Shown here: piece by piece, positions 535 to 17,671 of the stretch
Layout: every line of letters starts with the position of its first letter
Position numbering within the stretch: the stretch's first letter is position 1
DNA from: a virus
Length of the DNA: 25,725 nt
Direction: 5' to 3' (one strand)
Virus record (IMG/VR): IMGVR_UViG_3300025128_000291
Location: 1-25,725 of that record
The notes under the pieces: generated by a model
What the model was told of the DNA's origin: nothing
Database searches by the model: none
The model's input: only the letters and a program-made list of their open reading frames with translations
Program-made: the position numbers and the translations under genes

Positions 535-1017
535 ATGTGGCACAGTGATACATTAGGTGTCATACGGACACCAAAAGAAATAACGATTAATGGTGTAACT
601 CATCCTCGCCAGATATTCCGCAAATGGAGTAAGGCGCAACTGGCTGAGTTAGGAATTACTCCTGCGCGAGTAGAGCATGTAGATCAGAAGTATTACAACA
701 CTGGTGCAGAGTCTATGACTCTAGTAGATGGCGAGACTGTCATTAGTTATGCAGCAACACCGAAGTCTGTAGATGTGTTGAAGACAACCATGAAGGCTGA
801 AGTAAATTCTATGGCTTTTGGTAAATTATCAGGATCAGATTGGATGACTTATCGTGAAGCGGATGGTGGGAAGGCTATGCCTGTTGATTGGAAAAATTAC
901 AGAACAGCTATCAGAGCTGAGAGTAACGAGAAGGAAGGTGAGATAGATGGTCTAGCCGATCTTGACGCAATCAAGGCTTACAACATTAGTGAAGGCTGGC
1001 CCGAAGAACCTGCGTAA
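535..1017 (+). CDS. Hypothetical tail accessory protein (tail-fibre-assembly-like position)
   Basis: A 160-residue acidic protein with no signal peptide or membrane segment. It starts 3 nt after the tail protein, with AGGT just upstream as a modest ribosome-binding site, and its stop overlaps the next start as TAATG. The N-terminus describes a short beta-rich segment (TPKEITINGVTHPRQIF), the middle is mixed, and the C-terminus is helical and ends WPEEPA. Small proteins directly downstream of fibre genes are often fibre chaperones or capping proteins, so that is a position-based guess. I do not recognise a catalytic motif. Confidence 0.55.
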   Translation: MWHSDTLGVIRTPKEITINGVTHPRQIFRKWSKAQLAELGITPARVEHVDQKYYNTGAESMTLVDGETVISYAATPKSVDVLKTTMKAEVNSMAFGKLSGSDWMTYREADGGKAMPVDWKNYRTAIRAESNEKEGEIDGLADLDAIKAYNISEGWPEEPA

Positions 1018-3062
1018 TGGCATTTATTCCTATAGATAAAGTAGGTGAGGTAGGTATAGTTAAGGAGACTTCTCCTTGGCAGCTACCTCCTAATGTCTGG
1101 AGTGACGGTAATAACATAAAAACAGAGGAAGGCTCTATAAAGAAAACCCCTGGTTATTCAGAGGTAATGAAGACCTGCCCTGTTGCACCTTACCACCTTA
1201 TGCAGCTTACTCTAGGAGAGCCGGAGTTCTGGATAGCTTGTGGTCTTACAGCTATCTATGCGTATGACAATACTAACTCTTCTACTTTGCTGGATGGCGC
1301 TATTGCAAGCACAGATGGTACTGGTGATATTACTGTAGATAGCACAGATGGTTTCGAGGATTCTGGTACTATAACAATAGGAACAGAAAATATAAGCTAT
1401 ACCGAAAAGACTGCTACTACGTTTGCAGGGACTATTGGTAGGGGAGCAGATGGCACTGATGGCGCACTCCACTCTGATGACGCTACCGTAACCAGAGCTA
1501 CTAAATGGTACAACATTACACGATCTAGTGGGGCTTATTCAGCTACAGCAGGTGAGAACTGGACTTCTACCATCATTGGTGGTGTTCTTGTTTTGACCAA
1601 CAACTTTGATAAACCACAGTATTGGGCTTTAACAAATGGTGTACCGTTATCTAGCACTCTTATGCAGGATTTATCTTATTGGCCCAGTCTTACTTTACTG
1701 AATGGGGCTATAACAGGAACTGGAGTTCCTAGCCCTGATGAGATTGTGGTAGATTCTACGGAAGATTTCCCAACTTCAGGAACCTTTACAGTTGGTACTG
1801 AAGATATTTCTTATACAGGTAAAACAGCTACAAAGTTTACTGGTATAGGGCGAGGAGAGAACGGGACTACAGCAGCTACTCATTTAGATAACGCACCTGC
1901 ATTTGTTAATGTTTATTGTAAGTCTATGCGTGCATTTCGATCTTTCTTGGTTGCTCTCAATATAAAGAGGGGTGGTGTATCTTATCCTAGAGTTGTGAAG
2001 TGGAGTACGGAAGCTGGTATACAGGATGTTCCGTCCTCATGGAATGAAACTACGAGTACCGTTGATGCTGGCGAGTTCGAGTTGGCAGATACCAAGGGTG
2101 ATATTCAGGACGGTCTTCAGTTAAGAGACACGTTTATGATATATAAGGAAGATGCTACCTACTCAATGAGTTTTGTTGGCACTCCTTTTATCTTTTCATT
2201 CAGACAGTTATCTCCTACAATTGGAGCAATAGCTAAGAACTGTGTAGCTGAGTTTGATGGTGGTCACGCTATCTTTGGTAAGGGTAACTTCTACATCAAT
2301 GATGGTCAGAGACTAAAGCCTATACTTCCGCAGAAGCTAAAGGAGTATGTCTTCACCACGCTTGATGGCGCTAGGGTAAGTGAGTGTTTTGTTGCTGCTG
2401 ATTATGGCAGGACTGAGATACTCTTCTGCTTCACCGCTGATGGCGCACCTAGCAACCAACCTAACAAAGCTATAGTATGGAATTATATTACTAATACGTT
2501 CTGTATAAGAGATTTACCTGATGTAGCGCATATGGGTTACGGTAACGTAGGAAACCCCACCACAGCAACCACATGGGCTGATACGACTACGTATTGGAAT
2601 ACTATTGATGGTCCGTGGACAATGAGTTATGATCTTCAGGATAAGGTTCTTTTATTTGCTGACCCATCGAATACAAAGTTGTATAGGGATAGGTCTGGCA
2701 ATAGGGAAGATACTACAAACATGTCGTCTTATATTGAGAGAACAGGGTTATCGTTGGATGAACAGGGAAGACCGGACCAAACCTCTGTGAAACATATTTC
2801 TTCTATCTGGCCTAAGATGTCCACTAGCAGCACGAATACTGTTAATGTTTATCTAGGAACCCAAATGAGTACGCAGGGTGGTGTAACCTGGGGTGATCCA
2901 GTTGTATTTGACCCTGATACACAGTCTAAAGTATCTGTTCGAGGGACTGGAAAACTATATGCAGTTAAGTTTGAGTCTACTACGGATATGGAGTGGGAGC
3001 TAGATGGATATACGATTGAGGTGAAAAGTGCTGGTAAGAGGGGTGGTAGGGGTCACGTATAA
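1017..3062 (+). CDS. Large virion protein, head-completion/tail-hub-like, with duplicated beta module
   Basis: A 681-residue protein starting at a TAATG junction and ending at another. The N-terminus (LPPNVWSDGNNIKTEEGSIK and PGYSEV) resembles the start of podovirus packaged-DNA-stabilisation or tail-hub proteins: a 'conditions plus profile of sample points' pattern followed by repeated blades such as FWIACG, VLTNNFDKPQYW and AIVWNYITNTFCIRDLPD. This suggests a beta-propeller-like body. Two copies of a module of about 70 residues, at roughly 91-161 and 227-298, share DST..F..SGT.T.GTE.ISYT.KTAT.F.G.GRG..GT.....H. Similar modules decorate many phage surface proteins. Its place between tail-fibre and internal-protein genes fits a role at the neck or tail. 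Virion protein is confident; the exact role is not. Confidence 0.7.
   Translation: MAFIPIDKVGEVGIVKETSPWQLPPNVWSDGNNIKTEEGSIKKTPGYSEVMKTCPVAPYHLMQLTLGEPEFWIACGLTAIYAYDNTNSSTLLDGAIASTDGTGDITVDSTDGFEDSGTITIGTENISYTEKTATTFAGTIGRGADGTDGALHSDDATVTRATKWYNITRSSGAYSATAGENWTSTIIGGVLVLTNNFDKPQYWALTNGVPLSSTLMQDLSYWPSLTLLNGAITGTGVPSPDEIVVDSTEDFPTSGTFTVGTEDISYTGKTATKFTGIGRGENGTTAATHLDNAPAFVNVYCKSMRAFRSFLVALNIKRGGVSYPRVVKWSTEAGIQDVPSSWNETTSTVDAGEFELADTKGDIQDGLQLRDTFMIYKEDATYSMSFVGTPFIFSFRQLSPTIGAIAKNCVAEFDGGHAIFGKGNFYINDGQRLKPILPQKLKEYVFTTLDGARVSECFVAADYGRTEILFCFTADGAPSNQPNKAIVWNYITNTFCIRDLPDVAHMGYGNVGNPTTATTWADTTTYWNTIDGPWTMSYDLQDKVLLFADPSNTKLYRDRSGNREDTTNMSSYIERTGLSLDEQGRPDQTSVKHISSIWPKMSTSSTNTVNVYLGTQMSTQGGVTWGDPVVFDPDTQSKVSVRGTGKLYAVKFESTTDMEWELDGYTIEVKSAGKRGGRGHV
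1287..1910 (+). repeat. Intragenic duplication of a beta-sandwich module
   Basis: Within the 681-residue virion protein, codons 91-161 (1287-1499) and 227-298 (1695-1910) encode two related modules. The shared core is DST-x2-F-x2-SGT followed by the GTE-x-ISYT motif, then KTAT, a GRG turn and a trailing H. The copies differ at many positions, so the duplication is old or reflects recruitment of two related modules. They are separated by about 65 residues. Confidence 0.8.
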
Positions 3063-7711: not shown

Positions 7712-10698
7712 TGGCTGATATACCTTTTCCTTGGGAGAAGAAAGAAGCCTCTAAGTTAGCCTTTCCTTGGGAACAGGCAGAGGGTGATGATGAGATGTCT
7801 GCATCAGATGCTATGTGGTATGCTGGTAAGCTAGGATTCTTTGATACTACTAGAGGTGTTGGTCAGCTCACAGGTATTGGTGATGAAGAGGAGATGGCTA
7901 AGAAGCAAGCCAAACTCAACGAGCTTATGGAGCATCCTGAGTATGGTGGGCGTGTAACCGCTGCATACTTTGGCGGTCTTCTTGCTGACCCTGTGGGGTG
8001 GGCATTACCTGTAGCTAAACTAAAGAATGTAGGCACAGGAATAAAAGCTATTGGTAAACTGGCTGGCTATGGTGCTGGCACAGGTGCTACCATAGGTGCG
8101 CTTGGCTACGTTGATCCAGAAGCACAGTCCCTGATAGGTGAAGGCTCGATCACTAGGGGTGAACAAGCATTGCTTGGTGGTACTATGGGTGGTGCTATCG
8201 GTGCAGCAGTAAAGCCAGTAGGTGGAGCTATATCCTCTCTGTATGGGAAGGGTAAGGAAGCGTATGCTCCAGTAGGTGAGGTTGCATGGAAGGCCATGAC
8301 AACCCATCCAGAGCTAGGCACAGGAGCAGGTGGTGGTCTTATAGGGTATAACTATGACCAGGACGCACCTATCTCTGATAGGATGAAGAATGCAGTTATT
8401 GGAGCAACGTTAGGAGCAGGTGGTGCTGGCGCATTAAGACTTAATCCAGACTTAAAGGCTGCTGTAGGTAGGTTTGCTATACCTGACTTTAGGCTTGATG
8501 ACAATTATCTTTCCATGAAAGGTGGGGTAAAGAGGGACCGAAGTAGGATACATAGGGAGTTTGATAGCATAGTAAGGCGTATAGCCGAAGAACCTGAAGA
8601 TGTGAGAAAGGTTTTATATAAAATGCTTACTAACGAAGCTGCTCCAATTAGCAAGTCTCTTACTGGTGTTAGGGATGAGATAAGGGAGTTAGTGACGAAG
8701 TATGGTGAAGAGCTTAGAGATTTTGGGGTTATTGATCCTGAAGTATTTAAAAAGAATGTAGATACTTACATGCACCGTAGTTTTAAAAGACCGAAGACTG
8801 GATTTTGGAGACAGTTTAAAAGCACTGGTGAAAAAATATCCACTATGGGTGATGAACTTAGAATGCGTGGTATAAAGAAAGTTATCAGCGTGCAAAACTT
8901 TAGGGATGGTAGATTCCCAGATCGAGAACCTGGATGGGAGCCTATAGGAAAGCCTACAAAAGATGGGACTATAGAGGTTCGTAGAGACTATACTGAAGCC
9001 GAACGAGCAGAGAGAGGTGAGATAACTGATGCTGCGTTTGCTTTAGACAGGACTGGTAGGTTGATGGCTAATGATGTAGCTGCCTATAGATTCTTCAGAG
9101 ACTTAGCTAATGATGGAAACTATGGTAGGTATTGGTCTGATTCAGATGATGGTAAGTTTACAAAACTTATATCAAGTAAGAACTTTCCAGACTCTCAGGC
9201 TAAAATATTTGGTGACTTACATGGTAAGTATGTAACTCCAGAAGTTTACCAAGACCTGAAGAGAGTGCAGAATTTAAGAGGTGGTATCATCCCATTTCTT
9301 GAGAAGATAAAGTACAGAGCTTTAAATAGGTTTTGGAAGAAGACAAAGACCGGCTTAAACCCTGCTACACATTTCAATAACGTCTTGTCTAATATACACA
9401 TGTACGATGCGTATGATGGAAAGGCAAAGGATTTATTATCTGCTGCTAAAGACTTAAGGACGAAGGGGGGTGACTACCAAGATGCTTTGGATGATGGGGT
9501 ATTTGGTGGTGGCGTGCTTGCCCATGAAATGAATCGAGGCCATGAATCTATACTGAATGCTTACGAAGCGGGGGTTAGAAAGTTCTCTGTAGGTGATAAA
9601 GGGGATAAGGCTCTCGATGAACTTATAGCTCAAGTTCCTGACATAGTTAAGACAGTTGGTAAGTGGACGAAAAACCAATCTTACGATAGGATGTTAAATT
9701 TATATCAGATGGAAGACCATGTGTTTAGGCTAGGTATGTACAAAAAACTTAGGTCTGACTATATGGCTAAAGGTCTAAGCAAAGATGATGCTGGACTTAG
9801 AGCTGCTAAAGAAGCGAGGGAAGGCTTTGTAGATTACGAGAAAACTTCTCCGCTACTTGAAGGGTTAAGGGAAGGTCCATTCCCATTCATTGCCTACATG
9901 TATGGTATAGTCCCACGACTGGCTGAGACTGCTGTTAAGAAGCCTTGGAAGCTGGCAAAGTGGGGGTTAATCTGGCATGGAATTAACCAGATGGGTGAGG
10001 ATATGTCCCCTGACCAAGAGAAAACTGATAAGCAGAGAGCATTAATGGACCCAGAAACGCAAGGTATGCCGTTGATGGGAATCCCTGGTATGCCGAGTGG
10101 TATGATAAAAATGCCGGAAGCTATCTCACCAGATACTCCTGATGACTGGTATGTGAATTTCTCAAGAGGATTGCCTGGGGGTACTGACATGTTTGGTCAG
10201 CGAGAGTCAGCTCCTGGTGTAATACCTGGATTACCGCAGTTTGCACAGCCTTCATTCGGAGCTGCTGGTGCATTGTTTAATACAGCAATGGGGATAGATC
10301 CATTTAGGGGAAGGGGTATACCAGAGGGTGAAAGGTTAAAGTATCTCGGTCAACAGTTTATACCTAACCTTCCTATTCCTGGTATGCCATCTTATGCGGG
10401 GAAGAAACTAGACAGAGCTAGAGCTGGTAGAACCAGTAAAACAAAGGACGATCATACAGTTACCTCTGCTCTATTGTCTGGTCTAGGGTTGAAATTGACG
10501 CCAGTGTCCACTCGTAAGCTGAAGAAGAGGAGAGGATACCCATACGATAAGAAGATACGAGAGCTGTCCACCAAAAGGAGAAACCTTAAAAACAATTGGG
10601 TTGGTGAGTTAGATGAGGATTTCTACAAAGAAAGGGATAAGATAATCAAAGAGATACGGAAACTTAAACGAGAGAAACGACAGGTTCAGAATCCATGA
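7711..10698 (+). CDS. Large internal/ejection-type virion protein
   Basis: At 995 residues this is the largest gene in the window. The N-terminus has two FPWE motifs (residues 6-9 and 18-21). These are followed by a Gly-rich hydrophobic region (about 85-245, with GYGAGTGATIGALGY and GGTMGGAIGAAVKPVGG) that could insert in membranes. A long helical region follows. Residues about 670-760 carry LYQMEDHVFRLGMYKKLR and FVDYEKTSPLLEGLREGPFP, a block I associate with large polyvalent or ejection proteins (possibly the LPD38-type domain). The C-terminus is very basic and coiled coil-like (KRRNLKNNW, KEIRKLKREKR). Its length and place at the end of the virion genes, just before the membrane cassette, fit a DNA-ejection protein. 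It overlaps the next gene by 4 nt (ATGA). Confidence 0.7.
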   Translation: MADIPFPWEKKEASKLAFPWEQAEGDDEMSASDAMWYAGKLGFFDTTRGVGQLTGIGDEEEMAKKQAKLNELMEHPEYGGRVTAAYFGGLLADPVGWALPVAKLKNVGTGIKAIGKLAGYGAGTGATIGALGYVDPEAQSLIGEGSITRGEQALLGGTMGGAIGAAVKPVGGAISSLYGKGKEAYAPVGEVAWKAMTTHPELGTGAGGGLIGYNYDQDAPISDRMKNAVIGATLGAGGAGALRLNPDLKAAVGRFAIPDFRLDDNYLSMKGGVKRDRSRIHREFDSIVRRIAEEPEDVRKVLYKMLTNEAAPISKSLTGVRDEIRELVTKYGEELRDFGVIDPEVFKKNVDTYMHRSFKRPKTGFWRQFKSTGEKISTMGDELRMRGIKKVISVQNFRDGRFPDREPGWEPIGKPTKDGTIEVRRDYTEAERAERGEITDAAFALDRTGRLMANDVAAYRFFRDLANDGNYGRYWSDSDDGKFTKLISSKNFPDSQAKIFGDLHGKYVTPEVYQDLKRVQNLRGGIIPFLEKIKYRALNRFWKKTKTGLNPATHFNNVLSNIHMYDAYDGKAKDLLSAAKDLRTKGGDYQDALDDGVFGGGVLAHEMNRGHESILNAYEAGVRKFSVGDKGDKALDELIAQVPDIVKTVGKWTKNQSYDRMLNLYQMEDHVFRLGMYKKLRSDYMAKGLSKDDAGLRAAKEAREGFVDYEKTSPLLEGLREGPFPFIAYMYGIVPRLAETAVKKPWKLAKWGLIWHGINQMGEDMSPDQEKTDKQRALMDPETQGMPLMGIPGMPSGMIKMPEAISPDTPDDWYVNFSRGLPGGTDMFGQRESAPGVIPGLPQFAQPSFGAAGALFNTAMGIDPFRGRGIPEGERLKYLGQQFIPNLPIPGMPSYAGKKLDRARAGRTSKTKDDHTVTSALLSGLGLKLTPVSTRKLKKRRGYPYDKKIRELSTKRRNLKNNWVGELDEDFYKERDKIIKEIRKLKREKRQVQNP

Positions 10699-11048
10699 AA
10701 GTTATACTACTATTTATTGCACTGACGGCAGCAGCGTTTGCTGGTCCACCTAAGAATGCAACCAAACACATGATGCCCTTCCCTGTTATCTGTACACCAA
10801 CAGTAGGTGATATGATGGAAGCGTTGACTAAAGATTATGCAGTACATATATCTATGACATTCGAGGAGACTCCAGAGAACGGTGTATTTGTGGTACAAAA
10901 CCCCAATACTCAAACGGCTGCTGTGCTACATACGAACCAAGAAAGGACATGCCTAGTATTCTCTGGTTTAAATATGAGAGAGTTCGTTAGACCAGAAGGG
11001 ATGGCTGAACCAGAGGTGGACATTAGCGATCAAGGTCAAGACACGTGA
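10695..11048 (+). CDS. Small secreted protein with signal peptide
   Basis: A 117-residue protein starting at an ATGA overlap. It has a clear Sec signal peptide: Lys2, hydrophobic core VILLFIALTAAAFA, and likely cleavage after Ala16. The mature part has two cysteines (Cys33 and Cys86) that could form a disulfide in the periplasm. It ends in an acidic tail. The pattern of an early Cys, a central beta region (ENGVFVVQNPNTQTAAVL) and a late Cys resembles small periplasmic proteins of unknown function in proteobacteria and phages. It opens a chain of exported or membrane genes, so a role in lysis or envelope modification is likely but unproven. Confidence 0.6.
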   Translation: MKVILLFIALTAAAFAGPPKNATKHMMPFPVICTPTVGDMMEALTKDYAVHISMTFEETPENGVFVVQNPNTQTAAVLHTNQERTCLVFSGLNMREFVRPEGMAEPEVDISDQGQDT

Positions 11049-11251
11049 GCGAGGTGTCTGATGTGGAGTTAGGTAAACTAATCCAACAAATATCCACATT
11101 GGAAGTAATGGTAAAGGAACAGAACATACGATTAGATAAGTTAGATCAACAACTAGAAAGGACTAGGGGCATAGGTATCGGTATAGTCTTAGCAACTGTA
11201 GGGTTATCCGGTGTAGGTGCATCCTTGTTTACGAGGTGGCTAGGTCAATGA
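11045..11251 (+). CDS. Small membrane protein, coiled coil plus C-terminal TM (holin/XhlA-like)
   Basis: A 68-residue protein starting with GTG in a GTGA overlap with the previous stop. Residues 8-40 form a heptad-like coiled coil (LIQQISTLEVMVKEQNIRL). Residues 42-62 form one membrane segment (GIGIGIVLATVGLSGVGASLF), followed by the short basic end TRWLGQ. This layout matches the XhlA-like haemolysin group and some phage holin or antiholin proteins. It is co-translated with the next genes through ATGA. The lysis role is inferred from topology and context. Confidence 0.6.
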   Translation: MSEVSDVELGKLIQQISTLEVMVKEQNIRLDKLDQQLERTRGIGIGIVLATVGLSGVGASLFTRWLGQ

Positions 11252-11640
11252 ATATAGACTCAAGAGTTTTAACGGTACTGCTATTTTTAATAGTCCAGAG
11301 CGCAACAGGTATATGGTGGGCGAGTAACCTATCCAGTGAAGTGGAAAGAGTTGCAGGTGTACAGGGTGGGCAGCATACGAAACAAATTGAGGCGTTGGAA
11401 AAGGACGCCCAAATGTGTCAAATAGAAATCCACAATCTTCAGAAGCTGGTTGCTGACCAAAGTGAAATTGAGGACGCCGTTAAGGGTTTGGATGTTCTTG
11501 CCTTTAAGGTAGAAGAGTTGCGTAAAGAAATCTCTGGCCTGAGAGAAGTTGACAAGGATATCATGACACAGCATGAGAAGATATTTGAGTGGATGGCTAA
11601 TTCAAGCCCGTCACAACAGAAAGGTAACCCCTACGACTAA
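11248..11640 (+). CDS. Membrane-anchored coiled-coil protein with IWWAS motif (i-spanin-like topology)
   Basis: A 130-residue protein read from ATG 11248, which overlaps the previous stop as ATGA; the alternative GTG at 11236 is less likely. It has one N-terminal membrane segment (residues 7-26, ending GIWWAS) and a long periplasmic-type coiled coil (EQIEALEKDAQMC, then a second helix block ending near residue 112). This single TM followed by coiled coil is the topology of Rz-type inner-membrane spanins, but it is also seen in unrelated phage proteins. Its TM and IWWAS-xL motif recur in the next gene, which suggests a tandem duplication. Confidence 0.55.
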   Translation: MNIDSRVLTVLLFLIVQSATGIWWASNLSSEVERVAGVQGGQHTKQIEALEKDAQMCQIEIHNLQKLVADQSEIEDAVKGLDVLAFKVEELRKEISGLREVDKDIMTQHEKIFEWMANSSPSQQKGNPYD

Positions 11641-11924
11641 TGGATGGTAAATTCTTTGTCACTATTGGTGTTGCTTTACTGGTACAGTTAGCGGGTATCG
11701 TATGGTGGGCATCTACCTTACAGTCTGCTGTCCAGCACAATGACTTCCAGATAAAGATGATGTCTAAAGATGTAGACAAGAACAGTTCTTTTGTAGAGCT
11801 TTGGCCAGCAGGAAAGTGGGGATCAGGAAGTCTGCCATCTGATGTAAAGCAGGACTTGAAGATTGAGAGACTGGAAATGCAAGTAGATAAATTAACTGAT
11901 AAAATTTATGGGAATGGAGAATGA
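11640..11924 (+). CDS. Membrane-anchored protein with VWWAS motif, paralogue of the preceding gene
   Basis: A 94-residue protein starting at TAATG. Residues 5-25 form one membrane helix (FFVTIGVALLVQLAGIVWWAS). The stretch Q..AGI.WWAS.L.S.V aligns with the N-terminus of the preceding protein. Residues 52-68 hold a short turn-rich segment (VELWPAGKWGSGSLPSD), and the C-terminus is a short coiled coil (IERLEMQVDKLTDKIY). It lies in the membrane cassette between the coiled-coil gene and the DUF6356 gene. Function unknown; accessory lysis or membrane role inferred. Confidence 0.55.
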   Translation: MDGKFFVTIGVALLVQLAGIVWWASTLQSAVQHNDFQIKMMSKDVDKNSSFVELWPAGKWGSGSLPSDVKQDLKIERLEMQVDKLTDKIYGNGE

Positions 11925-12097
11925 GTCACCTAAAAGAAAATAACATGAGTTGGGGTATGCACCTATGGTACGCGATAACATTGGCTACGAGATTACTTCT
12001 TTTGTCGTTGACTGCTGTGGCACATGGACTGTTACCCTTTATATTTACATCCAAAGTCTCTGATGAGGTTCATAAACTAAATGAAGAATTGTCGTGA
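11921..12097 (+). CDS. DUF6356 family small membrane protein
   Basis: A 58-residue protein starting at ATGA over the stop of the previous gene and ending in a GTGA overlap with the next. The sequence opens with HLKENNMSWGMHLWYA, continues through a hydrophobic segment (about 17-44) with AHGLLPFIFTSKVSD, and ends in a short acidic helix. The HLKENNMS..(Q/H)HL start and HG(L/F)(L/F)PF ending are the signature of DUF6356, a family of small proteins of unknown function in bacteria and phages. It is translationally coupled on both sides, so it is very likely expressed. Confidence 0.8.
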   Translation: MSHLKENNMSWGMHLWYAITLATRLLLLSLTAVAHGLLPFIFTSKVSDEVHKLNEELS

Positions 12098-12393
12098 CGA
12101 TAACGGAGTCAGCCCAACAGAAAGTAGACTCCACTCTAAATGGAGAGGGTTTCTTAGGGATACACTTAGAAGGTGGCGGATGTTCCGGCTATCAAATAAA
12201 GCTGTCTCCAACTACATCTCTACCACAAGATGCAGAGATGCTGTCAGAAACGATCTTCTCAGATGTCACCTCTTTGGAGCTATTAGGTGACGCCACAATG
12301 GACTGGATTGAAGACCCCTTTAGACCTACGTTCCACTTTACCCCACCTTCGGGAGCAACATCCTGTGGGTGTGGCAATAGCTTCACACTATAG
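12094..12393 (+). CDS. HesB/IscA-type iron-sulfur cluster carrier
   Basis: A 99-residue protein that starts with GTG in a GTGA overlap. It matches the A-type carrier family over its length: MTITESAQQKV at the N-terminus, GIHLEGGGCSGYQIKL with Cys30, the WIED segment near residue 71, and SCGCGNSF at the C-terminus with Cys91 and Cys93. These three cysteines are the conserved cluster or iron ligands of IscA, SufA and ErpA, so the protein should be functional. In bacteria these proteins receive [2Fe-2S] or [4Fe-4S] clusters from a scaffold and pass them to apo-proteins. Here it lies in a phage membrane cassette with no other iron-sulfur assembly gene, so it would rely on the host machinery. Family call strong; purpose unknown. 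Confidence 0.88.
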   Translation: MTITESAQQKVDSTLNGEGFLGIHLEGGGCSGYQIKLSPTTSLPQDAEMLSETIFSDVTSLELLGDATMDWIEDPFRPTFHFTPPSGATSCGCGNSFTL

Positions 12394-12401
12394 GAGGTGA
12401 C

Positions 12402-12524
12402 ATGGAAAAATGGAAAGAGTTAAGCCCAGGAAAGAAAAGGTTTTATGCAGCACTAGGAATAATTATCATAGCGGCTATCGTCGGAGCTGTATCTGGCTGG
12501 TGGTCCTCGCCACCTGCTGCCTAG
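12402..12524 (+). CDS. 40-residue single-TM peptide overlapping the lipoprotein gene
   Basis: A short gene just after the IscA-like gene, with the best ribosome-binding site of the cassette (AGGAGG, 4 nt from the ATG). The peptide has a charged N-terminus (MEKWKELSPGKKR), one membrane helix (FYAALGIIIIAAIVGAVSGWW) and a short Pro-rich end. Almost all of it overlaps the lipoprotein gene in another frame. Good SD, balanced topology and a clean stop support it as a real gene. A holin-like or regulatory membrane peptide is possible. It could also be a leader that sets translation of the overlapping lipoprotein. Confidence 0.6.
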   Translation: MEKWKELSPGKKRFYAALGIIIIAAIVGAVSGWWSSPPAA

Positions 12525-12895
12525 CATCTTGTACGACACTAAAGAAGGCAGGAGTTACCAGTCTGGGGGCAGGGACAGGTGCCATTGTGGGGAGTGCATT
12601 GAGTGGGGGTGTAGCTGCGCCGATACTGGGAGCCACGACGGGTGCCTTTGTGACAGATGTGGTGACGGAACTGAAGAGTCCGGCCAAGCCACAGGCTACA
12701 GTTTTGCACACGGAGCAGGGCATGATTGAGTGCGCCCCTGATAATTTTTGGAGTCTACTAGGTTCGCTGGTCAGCAGCGGAGGGACAGTTTTAATATGCT
12801 TTCTGATAATATCAATCGCGTTGCCAATGTTGTTGGGATGGATTCTTCCAGGCCCATTGGAGAGAAAGAAGAAACAAAGAAACTTGTTCTCATAG
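12410..12895 (+). CDS. Lipoprotein with glycine-zipper and C-terminal TM (u-spanin-like)
   Basis: A 161-residue protein from ATG 12410; a GTG at 12500 is the only other start and leaves a poor signal peptide. The N-terminus has RR, then the hydrophobic CIWLVVLATCC, and a lipobox LASC with Cys41. The mature part has a Gly-rich zipper (about 52-80: GAGTGAIVGSALSGGVAAPI), a soluble linker, the conserved-looking DNFWSLLG, then a C-terminal membrane segment (about 125-147) and a basic cytoplasmic end ERKKKQR. An outer-membrane lipid anchor plus an inner-membrane TM with about 80 residues between is the layout of unimolecular spanins such as T1 gp11. The Gly-zipper is not typical of those, so an alternative is a different envelope lipoprotein. 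The first 38 codons overlap the 40-residue gene out of frame. Confidence 0.65.
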   Translation: MERVKPRKEKVLCSTRNNYHSGYRRSCIWLVVLATCCLASCTTLKKAGVTSLGAGTGAIVGSALSGGVAAPILGATTGAFVTDVVTELKSPAKPQATVLHTEQGMIECAPDNFWSLLGSLVSSGGTVLICFLIISIALPMLLGWILPGPLERKKKQRNLFS

Positions 12896-13152
12896 AATGG
12901 GTTGACATAATATCTGACGATGGATGGGTGACAGCAGAAGACTGTCATCTTCCCACGTTCTATTCTGTGGGGTGGTTAGAGTACCAGGATGATAAGGTAC
13001 TAAAGATTTGTAACACCCTAGACTTTGATGACGCATTAGAAGAACACAAGAAAAAAGAAAAGCCCATAGGTTACGCAGTCACCTGCTTCCCCATGGGCTG
13101 TGTTACTAATGTAACAGAGATTAAGTCATCTTTAGGATCTCCCTTTGTGTAA
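12838..13152 (+). CDS. Conserved hypothetical small beta-rich protein
   Basis: This frame is open from 12748, but starts are weak. I place it at ATG 12838 (104 residues); ATG 12796 has a GGAGGG 11 nt upstream and is the alternative. Either way it overlaps the lipoprotein gene. The sequence has VLIEWVDIISDDGWVT, then TFYSVGWLEYQDDKVLKI, and ends with FPMGCVTNVTEI. The W.D....W....C....T.GWL...D......I pattern followed by (I/F)P.GC(V/I) is shared by a group of short phage proteins of unknown function. Its 3 prime end overlaps the convergent metallophosphoesterase gene by 32 nt. Confidence 0.6.
   Translation: MDSSRPIGEKEETKKLVLIEWVDIISDDGWVTAEDCHLPTFYSVGWLEYQDDKVLKICNTLDFDDALEEHKKKEKPIGYAVTCFPMGCVTNVTEIKSSLGSPFV
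13047..13099 (-). terminator. Candidate intrinsic terminator of the leftward operon
   Basis: Read leftward, AGCCCAT pairs with ATGGGCT (13099-13093 and 13067-13061), with an inner AGGT/ACCT pairing, and is followed at once by TTTTCTTTTTTCTT. It lies 22-74 nt beyond the stop of the metallophosphoesterase gene, inside the last rightward gene. The long asymmetric loop lowers confidence. Confidence 0.45.
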
Positions 13153-16009: not shown

Positions 16010-17671
16010 TCATACGTTACATACCCCCGATAAACATTGTTCCTCTGAGTTATCCTCGTAGACCACACCTCTCTTAGCGTGAGCCTCTTCATAAGGTACA
16101 GCCTGTATAGGTTGACCACCTCTTGACCCATCAGGGTAGAAGGTCAGACCTCTTAGACCATGACCATACTTCCTAACTATCCTAGAGAATTCATCAACGT
16201 GAGACTCATTATTAAACTCACTACCCCAGGGTGGAAGGTTAATGGTAGAGCTGACAGCATGATCTACATGCTTCTGCATCTCATACTGAAATCTTACTCT
16301 CCTTTCCACATCTTGTGCGAGGTCCATTGAGGTTTCGATTTTGGCTGGGTCGATTCCTTTGTCGATGAGTGCTTGGGCTGTACCGTCAATGACATATTGA
16401 TACTTCCATTTGGTTCCATCTGTAAGGTAGCGTCTGCGATATGCCAAACAGTGGACAGTTTCCAGACCACCGGTTGTTCCTGCGAGGATGCTAATAGTCC
16501 CTGTAGGTGCAATTGCTCTGTATCCTTGAGGACAGTTGAGATAAAACTGCTTACAATGTGCGTCAGCGGATCTTTTGCTTTCTGATTCATAGACTTTCAT
16601 CCATTTTTTAAGTTCATCAACCATTTCATAGCGATAATCCCTGGTTAGAAGCCACTCATGTACACCCATCAGACCAAGCCCAAGCCTAGAGTTCTTCTGT
16701 CTAACTTGACCAACCTTCTCGTAGGGTAGGTTAGCTCTCATAAGACCACAGACTAGAAACTTTGAAGCTAGCGCTACTACTTCTTTGAATCTTTCGATGC
16801 TCTCTATGTTAGCCATGTTCACCGAGCCTAAGTTACACACGTCAGAATCGTCACTCGAAACTATTTCGCAGCACGCGTTCCTAAGTGTCTCATCTTTCTT
16901 ATCGCCAAAGTTAAAGGAGAATCCAGGCTCACCAGACTTCATAGCTTGCCTACAGTTCTCCATAAAAACGTCATTATCGTTACCATTTAACCAGTTATCA
17001 CTGTAATTTACACTAATATTCATCATATCTAGTGGAGCAGGGTAGTTGAAGTCTTCCCTTTTAGCATCAGCGATAGTCATGGGAGTACCATCCCCATTGA
17101 ATGCACCCTTCACTGGTATATCACCCCAGTTCTTAGCGTGTAAGAACTTCCATATATCGTCATGGCTTGAATCCATAGAGCCGTACATGGCAGACCTTCT
17201 GCTTCCACCTTGCATGACGTTCCTACCAACCTCATTGATTGTGTAGAGTAGAGGAAGAGGACCAGAGGATATTCCCCCAGTCCTTTCCAAAACTCTACCA
17301 CTCGGTCTACAGACGGAAATGTCAACTCCGATACCACCACCAGTCATTAGGCATGACATAGCTCTCTGAGTGAGGCCAGCCCACTCTTCCCTAGTATCGT
17401 CTAAGAGTCTGAGAAGATAACAGTTGTTAAGGAAGGGAGCTTTCCTACCTGCATACCAAAGGTATCTACCCCCAGGCATAAACTCAAAGTTCTCAATACA
17501 CTTAACGAGTTCTGCTTGATCTTCCTTATCCATTAGGGGATGCGTAGCACCATGCATGTCACCACATACAAAGTTCACCACAGTCCTAGCTCTATCTCCC
17601 CAGGTTTCACCTGGATACTGTTGGTATTTGTTCTTATACGTTTCTTCACCAAACTCTGTTTTGAATTCCAT
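16010..17671 (-). CDS. nrdJ: Class II (adenosylcobalamin-type) ribonucleotide reductase
   Basis: A 553-residue protein with AGGGGG 6 nt before the ATG. It reduces ribonucleotides to deoxyribonucleotides. Motifs in order: RTVVNFVCGD, MPGGRYLWYAG, FLNNC with Cys84, GGGIGVDIS (111-119, typical of class II), NACCEI with Cys267 and Glu269 in place of the usual NPCGE, CNLGSVN with Cys279, GLGLMGVHE, and APTGTISILAG. The C-terminal CLSGVC (Cys546, Cys551) would be the thioredoxin-reducible pair. No ATP-cone is visible and it is shorter than cellular enzymes. No NrdB-like small subunit appears in the window, in line with class II. The host would need to supply or take up B12. Confidence in RNR is very high; class II is strong. 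Confidence 0.93.
   Translation of the reverse strand: MEFKTEFGEETYKNKYQQYPGETWGDRARTVVNFVCGDMHGATHPLMDKEDQAELVKCIENFEFMPGGRYLWYAGRKAPFLNNCYLLRLLDDTREEWAGLTQRAMSCLMTGGGIGVDISVCRPSGRVLERTGGISSGPLPLLYTINEVGRNVMQGGSRRSAMYGSMDSSHDDIWKFLHAKNWGDIPVKGAFNGDGTPMTIADAKREDFNYPAPLDMMNISVNYSDNWLNGNDNDVFMENCRQAMKSGEPGFSFNFGDKKDETLRNACCEIVSSDDSDVCNLGSVNMANIESIERFKEVVALASKFLVCGLMRANLPYEKVGQVRQKNSRLGLGLMGVHEWLLTRDYRYEMVDELKKWMKVYESESKRSADAHCKQFYLNCPQGYRAIAPTGTISILAGTTGGLETVHCLAYRRRYLTDGTKWKYQYVIDGTAQALIDKGIDPAKIETSMDLAQDVERRVRFQYEMQKHVDHAVSSTINLPPWGSEFNNESHVDEFSRIVRKYGHGLRGLTFYPDGSRGGQPIQAVPYEEAHAKRGVVYEDNSEEQCLSGVCNV

Follow-up and report, generated by a model that had tools for sequence, protein, structure and literature searches.

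A u-spanin-like lipoprotein family with an overlapping transmembrane-peptide gene and a probable internal start in mostly marine phages

Organization of the locus

The analysed DNA (the window) is the 25,725-base viral record IMG/VR IMGVR_UViG_3300025128_000291, positions 1 to 25,725. At the end of its structural module lie two overlapping predicted genes, one for a 40-aa peptide with a single transmembrane (TM) segment (12402–12524) and one for a 161-aa lipoprotein with u-spanin-like topology (12410–12895), the latter delineated from sequence, relatives and alignment. These genes, the features within them and the next gene downstream are all on the + strand. Directly upstream of the TM peptide and its AGGAGG Shine-Dalgarno (SD) site is a gene for an IscA/HesB-like iron-sulphur carrier (12094–12393), the product of which matches PF01521 with an E value of 5.5e-5, slightly under the Pfam cut-off. 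This gene recurs at the same place in relatives and shows only ~ 30% identity to the few similar genes in phage records. The next gene (12796–13152) encodes a 118-aa protein to which no function was assigned. It starts, in a third frame, at an ATG within the lipoprotein gene, and the two genes share 100 nt at the lipoprotein 3' end; a similar overlap occurs in three relatives (G001, G002 and G006), and several larger contigs encode relatives of the 118-aa protein close to the lipoprotein.

The cluster is headed by a gene (10695–11048) for a secreted protein of ~ 117 aa with two cysteines, which is conserved in many relatives. Three small proteins encoded in tandem by overlapping or abutting genes (11045–11251, 11236–11640 and 11640–11924) each combine one TM segment with a coiled coil, and proteins of this kind recur in the same cluster in relatives. 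The product of 11236–11640 gave weak Rz-like and hemolysin PHROG hits. The three proteins could be holin-like or i-spanin-like partners. Elsewhere in the window, a B12-dependent ribonucleotide reductase (16010–17671, - strand) is closest to that of Roseobacter phage CRP-3, with 51% identity.

Searches of IMG/VR retrieved 60 relatives with the full protein as query, 136 with its C-terminal module and 397 with a profile. The family thus comprises hundreds of phages, mostly marine and uncultured. Seven further contigs sit in genome bins labelled as unrelated phyla and are probably binned phage contigs. For comparative analysis, 210 loci were collapsed to 49 representatives with less than 80% identity to each other. 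Searches by tblastn of 50,697 phage records with the lipoprotein, a divergent relative and the C-terminal module returned nothing relevant, and at the sensitivity used the family appears absent from those records.

Anatomy of the lipoprotein

The lipoprotein begins with a 40-aa signal peptide (12410–12529) that has a long basic n-region and was detected by pattern scan; the AlphaFold model places a helix at residues 23–42. The lipobox, LAS, precedes Cys41 (12530–12532), which is invariant in the alignment (A3). A lipobox cysteine is present in 49/49 representatives, with one atypical sequence (NSGC), and the +2 residue, Thr in the window, is never Asp among them. The signal is followed by a Gly/Ala-rich, Gly-zipper-like segment (about 12551–12667) with weak matches to OsmB, below the cut-off, and to PF05433 (Rick_17kDa_Anti / Gly-zipper 2TM), which scored 11.8 bits against a cut-off of 24.2. 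A second conserved cysteine, Cys108 (12731–12733), found in 45/49 representatives, is situated just outside the C-terminal TM helix (residues 113–145; 12746–12844), which is predicted by AlphaFold with pLDDT of about 67–83. The helix carries the motif P-M/V/L-x-x-G/S-W in 48/49 representatives and leads into the basic tail PGPLERKKKQRNLFS, the ORF ending at 12895. Invariant elements of the C-terminal region are GG, P, W and PGP. About 72 residues separate Cys41 from the TM helix. The mean pLDDT of the model is 59, with residues 42 to 106, including the Gly-rich part, devoid of confident structure, and a profile search of the PDB gave no match.

The original prediction, made from the window alone, had described the lipobox at Cys41, the Gly-zipper segment and the C-terminal TM with its basic tail. 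The first and last are kept across the representatives at the frequencies given above, the Gly-zipper-like stretch is real and conserved, and the pattern that it had named as contrary evidence, relatives lacking the lipobox or the C-terminal TM, was not seen.

The overlapping transmembrane peptide

The AGGAGG sequence (12392–12397) precedes the TM-peptide ATG by 4 nt and the lipoprotein ATG by 12 nt; an SD-like sequence occupies the same place in 40/43 representatives. Translation from ATG 12402 through 40 codons to the TAG at 12522–12524 yields MEKWKELSPGKKRFYAALGIIIIAAIVGAVSGWWSSPPAA, a peptide with a basic N-terminus, a predicted N-in orientation and only about 8 residues beyond its TM segment. 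Its sequence varies widely, with clade types MEKWK, MWAKFQ, MESLKxW and MKHD. The lipoprotein ATG at 12410 is at +8 from the TM-peptide ATG, which places it in the -1 frame, and the two ORFs share 115 nt. The TM-peptide stop begins 8 nt ahead of the lipobox Cys codon, so that nearly the whole signal peptide is encoded within the overlap.

Forty-three representatives with enough upstream DNA were scanned for an SD-preceded single-TM ORF of 25–60 codons. Such an ORF was found in the same relative frame in 40/43 and in the other frame in 1/43, and two shifted control places gave 0–1/43. In one of the three sequences with no scored ORF (L167), inspection confirmed that the peptide is absent. Judged from these counts the overlap is real and conserved, not a product of chance. 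The lipoprotein frame is open through the overlap in 24/24 sequences, each having a mean chance of 0.56 under synonymous recoding, and its net charge there is 4.6 versus 2.5 from recoding; the sequences are related and these figures are therefore not independent. Between close pairs, third-position changes in the TM-peptide frame amount to 0.20 versus 0.09 and 0.07, and amino acid identity is 0.88 in the TM-peptide frame versus 0.75 in the lipoprotein frame. The substitution pattern indicates that selection in the overlap is dominated by the TM-peptide frame. The original prediction of a 40-codon TM peptide, with its AGGAGG, inside the lipoprotein start is thus borne out, and both frames, the conservation of which it had proposed to check, are kept in relatives.

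All members of the window's clade have the lipoprotein ATG at +8, a position partly forced by the conserved Lys-Trp of the TM peptide, and no better start gives a signal peptide in the window. A GTG at 12500, raised by the original prediction as a possible true start, was rejected because it is just 10 residues ahead of the Cys, too few for a signal peptide. The MWAKFQ clade has a GTG two bases past the peptide ATG and other clades have an ATG or TTG nearby; in the clade of L131 no ATG, GTG or TTG occurs within 56 codons of the lipobox Cys. Since some clades lack a good lipoprotein start, entry into the lipoprotein frame by frameshifting within the TM peptide was considered as an alternative. 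It was rejected: visual inspection of the window showed no slippery site, and the window's clade is explained by the +8 ATG. Comparison of these sequences shows that a single-TM peptide of 30–45 aa and a lipoprotein use overlapping frames, from starts a few nucleotides apart and behind one SD.

A probable internal start

Within the lipoprotein gene, a GGAG sequence (12712–12715) lies 6 nt before an in-frame ATG at 12722, from which a 57-aa TM protein, MIECAPDNFW...PGPLERKKKQRNLFS, would be produced (12722–12895). Both the start and the SD-like site are conserved in relatives. This internal start is new here and was missed by the original prediction. Every representative that has the second Cys also has an ATG, GTG or TTG 1–6 codons ahead of it, including one first scored as having none (L119), in which the ATG lies between two Cys residues. 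The start codon is at -2/-3 from the Cys in 36/44, versus a background of 0.19. Although the linker ahead of the C-terminal TM is variable in both length and sequence, a start codon is kept near the Cys. A larger set contains 84 sequences with the internal start (ATG 77, TTG 4, GTG 3); of two listed as lacking it, L105 has an ATG directly before the Cys and L040 has neither Cys nor start. Both are likewise absent from L202, L216 and L243.

Pairing of the upstream sequence with the anti-SD averages -7.4 kcal/mol in the 49-representative set. The first set examined gave a mean of -6.9 kcal/mol, versus -3.6 kcal/mol at other codons of the mature protein and -5.0 kcal/mol for synonymous recodings, 0/300 of which were as low. 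Use of the start at 12722, giving a third product of 57 aa, is graded as probable because the GSTSSSDMNSC clade keeps the internal ATG without an SD. That clade, and the finding of no standalone copy of the C-terminal TM module among relatives, would also suit a structural Met placed before the Cys that does not serve as a start. We consider this doubtful, as the replacements of the ATG are GTG or TTG, both start codons, synonymous recoding gives weaker SD-like purine tracts than those observed, and Met and Cys are lost together. The possibility that the module is a separate gene was rejected, the module being in frame with the lipoprotein in every untruncated relative; because it never occurs alone, the full-length protein must matter too.

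Lysis context and alternative functions

A lipoprotein pattern scan that recovers T1 gp11 and Cor identified the 12410–12895 ORF as the only lipoprotein in the six frames of the window. The family lipoprotein is also the only credible one in most of the larger relatives, barring short or antisense pattern hits. The scan found none in G012, probably because the lipoprotein start of that clade was not placed. Since the window holds no second lipoprotein, it holds no bona fide spanin pair, which the original prediction had named as evidence against its candidate, and no second lipoprotein was credible in the larger relatives. No endolysin was recognised in the cluster, nor by Pfam among the scanned ORFs of two larger contigs (G006, 39.8 kb; G010, 42.9 kb), which may be incomplete; searches by PHROGs (25 of 37 families listed in one search) and with PF13539 in 15 records also gave none. 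The cassette in which a u-spanin accompanies a holin and an endolysin was thus not found around the lipoprotein, and the enzyme may have escaped recognition. Two relatives encode a secreted protein of 330–343 aa (L143 3165–4157 and L062 7806–8834 (-)), directly downstream of the lipoprotein in L143. The L062 copy has no Pfam match, and the protein could be a hydrolase that escapes recognition.

A role outside lysis, in which a Gly-zipper envelope lipoprotein, partnered by the TM peptide, would act in superinfection exclusion or alter the envelope of the infected host, is unlikely. It would accommodate the weak similarity to PF05433 and OsmB, the lack of a recognised endolysin nearby and the PF01521 hit of the IscA/HesB-like neighbour; however, its location where the structural module ends, beside several small TM/coiled-coil proteins, the C-terminal TM with its basic tail and the absence of another lipoprotein fit a spanin better. 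We think it quite unlikely that the lipoprotein is instead the outer-membrane subunit of a two-component spanin, with the product of 11236–11640 or 11640–11924 as inner-membrane subunit and the C-terminal TM as an extra anchor. Many relatives do encode coiled-coil proteins with an N-terminal TM and a conserved Cys in this cluster, in L095 and L131 immediately after the lipoprotein, and Rz-like PHROG hits were obtained with E values of 0.013 and 0.059, but these hits are not significant, some of the coiled-coil proteins are encoded apart from the lipoprotein, and nearly all representatives (48/49) carry the C-terminal TM with its basic tail, for which an o-spanin has no need. A TM peptide functionless as a protein, serving as a translated leader through which HesB translation is coupled to the lipoprotein, would explain the divergence of its sequence between clades and a start placed to position ribosomes on that of the lipoprotein, but it is very improbable given that an SD and one TM segment are nearly always kept and that the peptide frame is the more conserved one in the overlap.

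Proposed function

The preferred explanation is a new family, u-spanin-like, whose genes overlap and probably include an internal start. That the lipoprotein works like a u-spanin we regard as evenly balanced, and membership of that class is not claimed, because of the conserved Cys, the Gly-rich segment, the lack of a recognised endolysin and of similarity to spanins, and the TM/coiled-coil proteins. The topology put forward in the original prediction therefore stands, whereas the periplasmic Cys, the unrecognised endolysin and the nearby i-spanin-like proteins weaken its assignment as a u-spanin candidate.

As a u-spanin-like system, the locus would be a compact group of late genes that serve to disrupt the envelope, in a family of tailed phages that are mostly marine. 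The lipoprotein would be exported, lipidated and sorted to the outer membrane, its +2 residue not being Asp, while its C-terminal TM would anchor it in the inner membrane, the topology of a u-spanin. After wall degradation it would draw both membranes together. The Gly-rich segment may be a membrane-active element; counting against this scheme, its insertion in the outer membrane would leave a linker of about 25–30 aa that could hardly span the periplasm. The TM peptide, in the inner membrane, may be a small holin-like or regulatory peptide. From the internal start the C-terminal TM part would also be made by itself, and this short product might pair with the full-length lipoprotein, via the TM or the Cys common to both, and tune it. 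More tentatively, ~ 500 nt may encode three membrane products of a self-regulated one-piece spanin, in which a TM end made from the internal start has the Cys in common with the full-length protein and tunes it. Such a spanin might have arisen from an overlapped i-/o-spanin pair through reduction of the inner-membrane partner to the TM peptide.

Should the lipoprotein be a spanin, it would supply the outer-membrane disruption protein of a large group of mostly marine phages. The virion protein of the window (1017–3062) shares about 33% identity with LUZ24-type proteins; both LUZ24 and tf have been listed among phages with no recognised spanin (PMC6139136), and our pattern scan of LUZ24 found no lipoprotein. 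If the proposal is true, the family is, to our knowledge, the first known u-spanin family in which a TM gene overlaps the spanin gene and translation also starts internally. It would then be a candidate link from two-component to one-piece spanins, a route of origin on which there has so far been only speculation.

Comparison with known systems

Gly-zipper lipoproteins (Rick_17kDa_Anti PF05433 and OsmB) share with the window protein a lipobox followed by a Gly/Ala-rich hydrophobic segment, at match scores far below the cut-offs; we know of no C-terminal TM with a basic tail in those proteins. The dual-start holins S105/S107 of lambda are two membrane proteins made from nearby starts on one message. 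In contrast, the nested start of the window comes about 100 codons into the gene, and its product would be confined to the C-terminal TM part.

In its anatomy the lipoprotein matches u-spanins as described by Kongari et al. (PMC6139136), both the lipobox signal and the C-terminal TM being found by sequence, whereas sequence searches detected no similarity to known spanins. None of the 58 catalogued u-spanins has a periplasmic Cys (PMC6139136), a regularity that is observed, not definitional, and from which this family departs; their periplasmic part is β-rich (PMC6139136). Like the u-spanin T1 gp11, the window protein has an N-terminal lipoprotein signal, a single C-terminal TM and a basic tail, and is the only convincing lipoprotein of its window. 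The mature lengths are 121 aa and 112 aa, respectively, and the Cys-to-TM distances about 72 and about 84 residues, above the 62-residue minimum length of spanin complexes (PMC6139136). Unlike T1 gp11, the window lipoprotein has a Gly/Ala-rich hydrophobic segment, a conserved Cys next to the TM, a start overlapped by the TM-peptide gene and a probable internal start, and no adjacent holin-endolysin pair was recognised beside it.

An i-spanin with an N-terminal TM and a periplasmic domain, as in overlapped two-component spanins, does not overlap the lipoprotein: hardly any of the TM peptide would be periplasmic and it cannot be an i-spanin as known, and the lipoprotein, unlike Rz1-type partners, carries its own TM. 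Nonetheless, the gene arrangement resembles that of overlapped Rz/Rz1-type spanins such as P2 LysB/LysC, in which genes for a TM protein and a lipoprotein overlap in different frames with the lipoprotein extending beyond, and the -1 register is known for the overlap of 116 o-spanins (PMC6139136).
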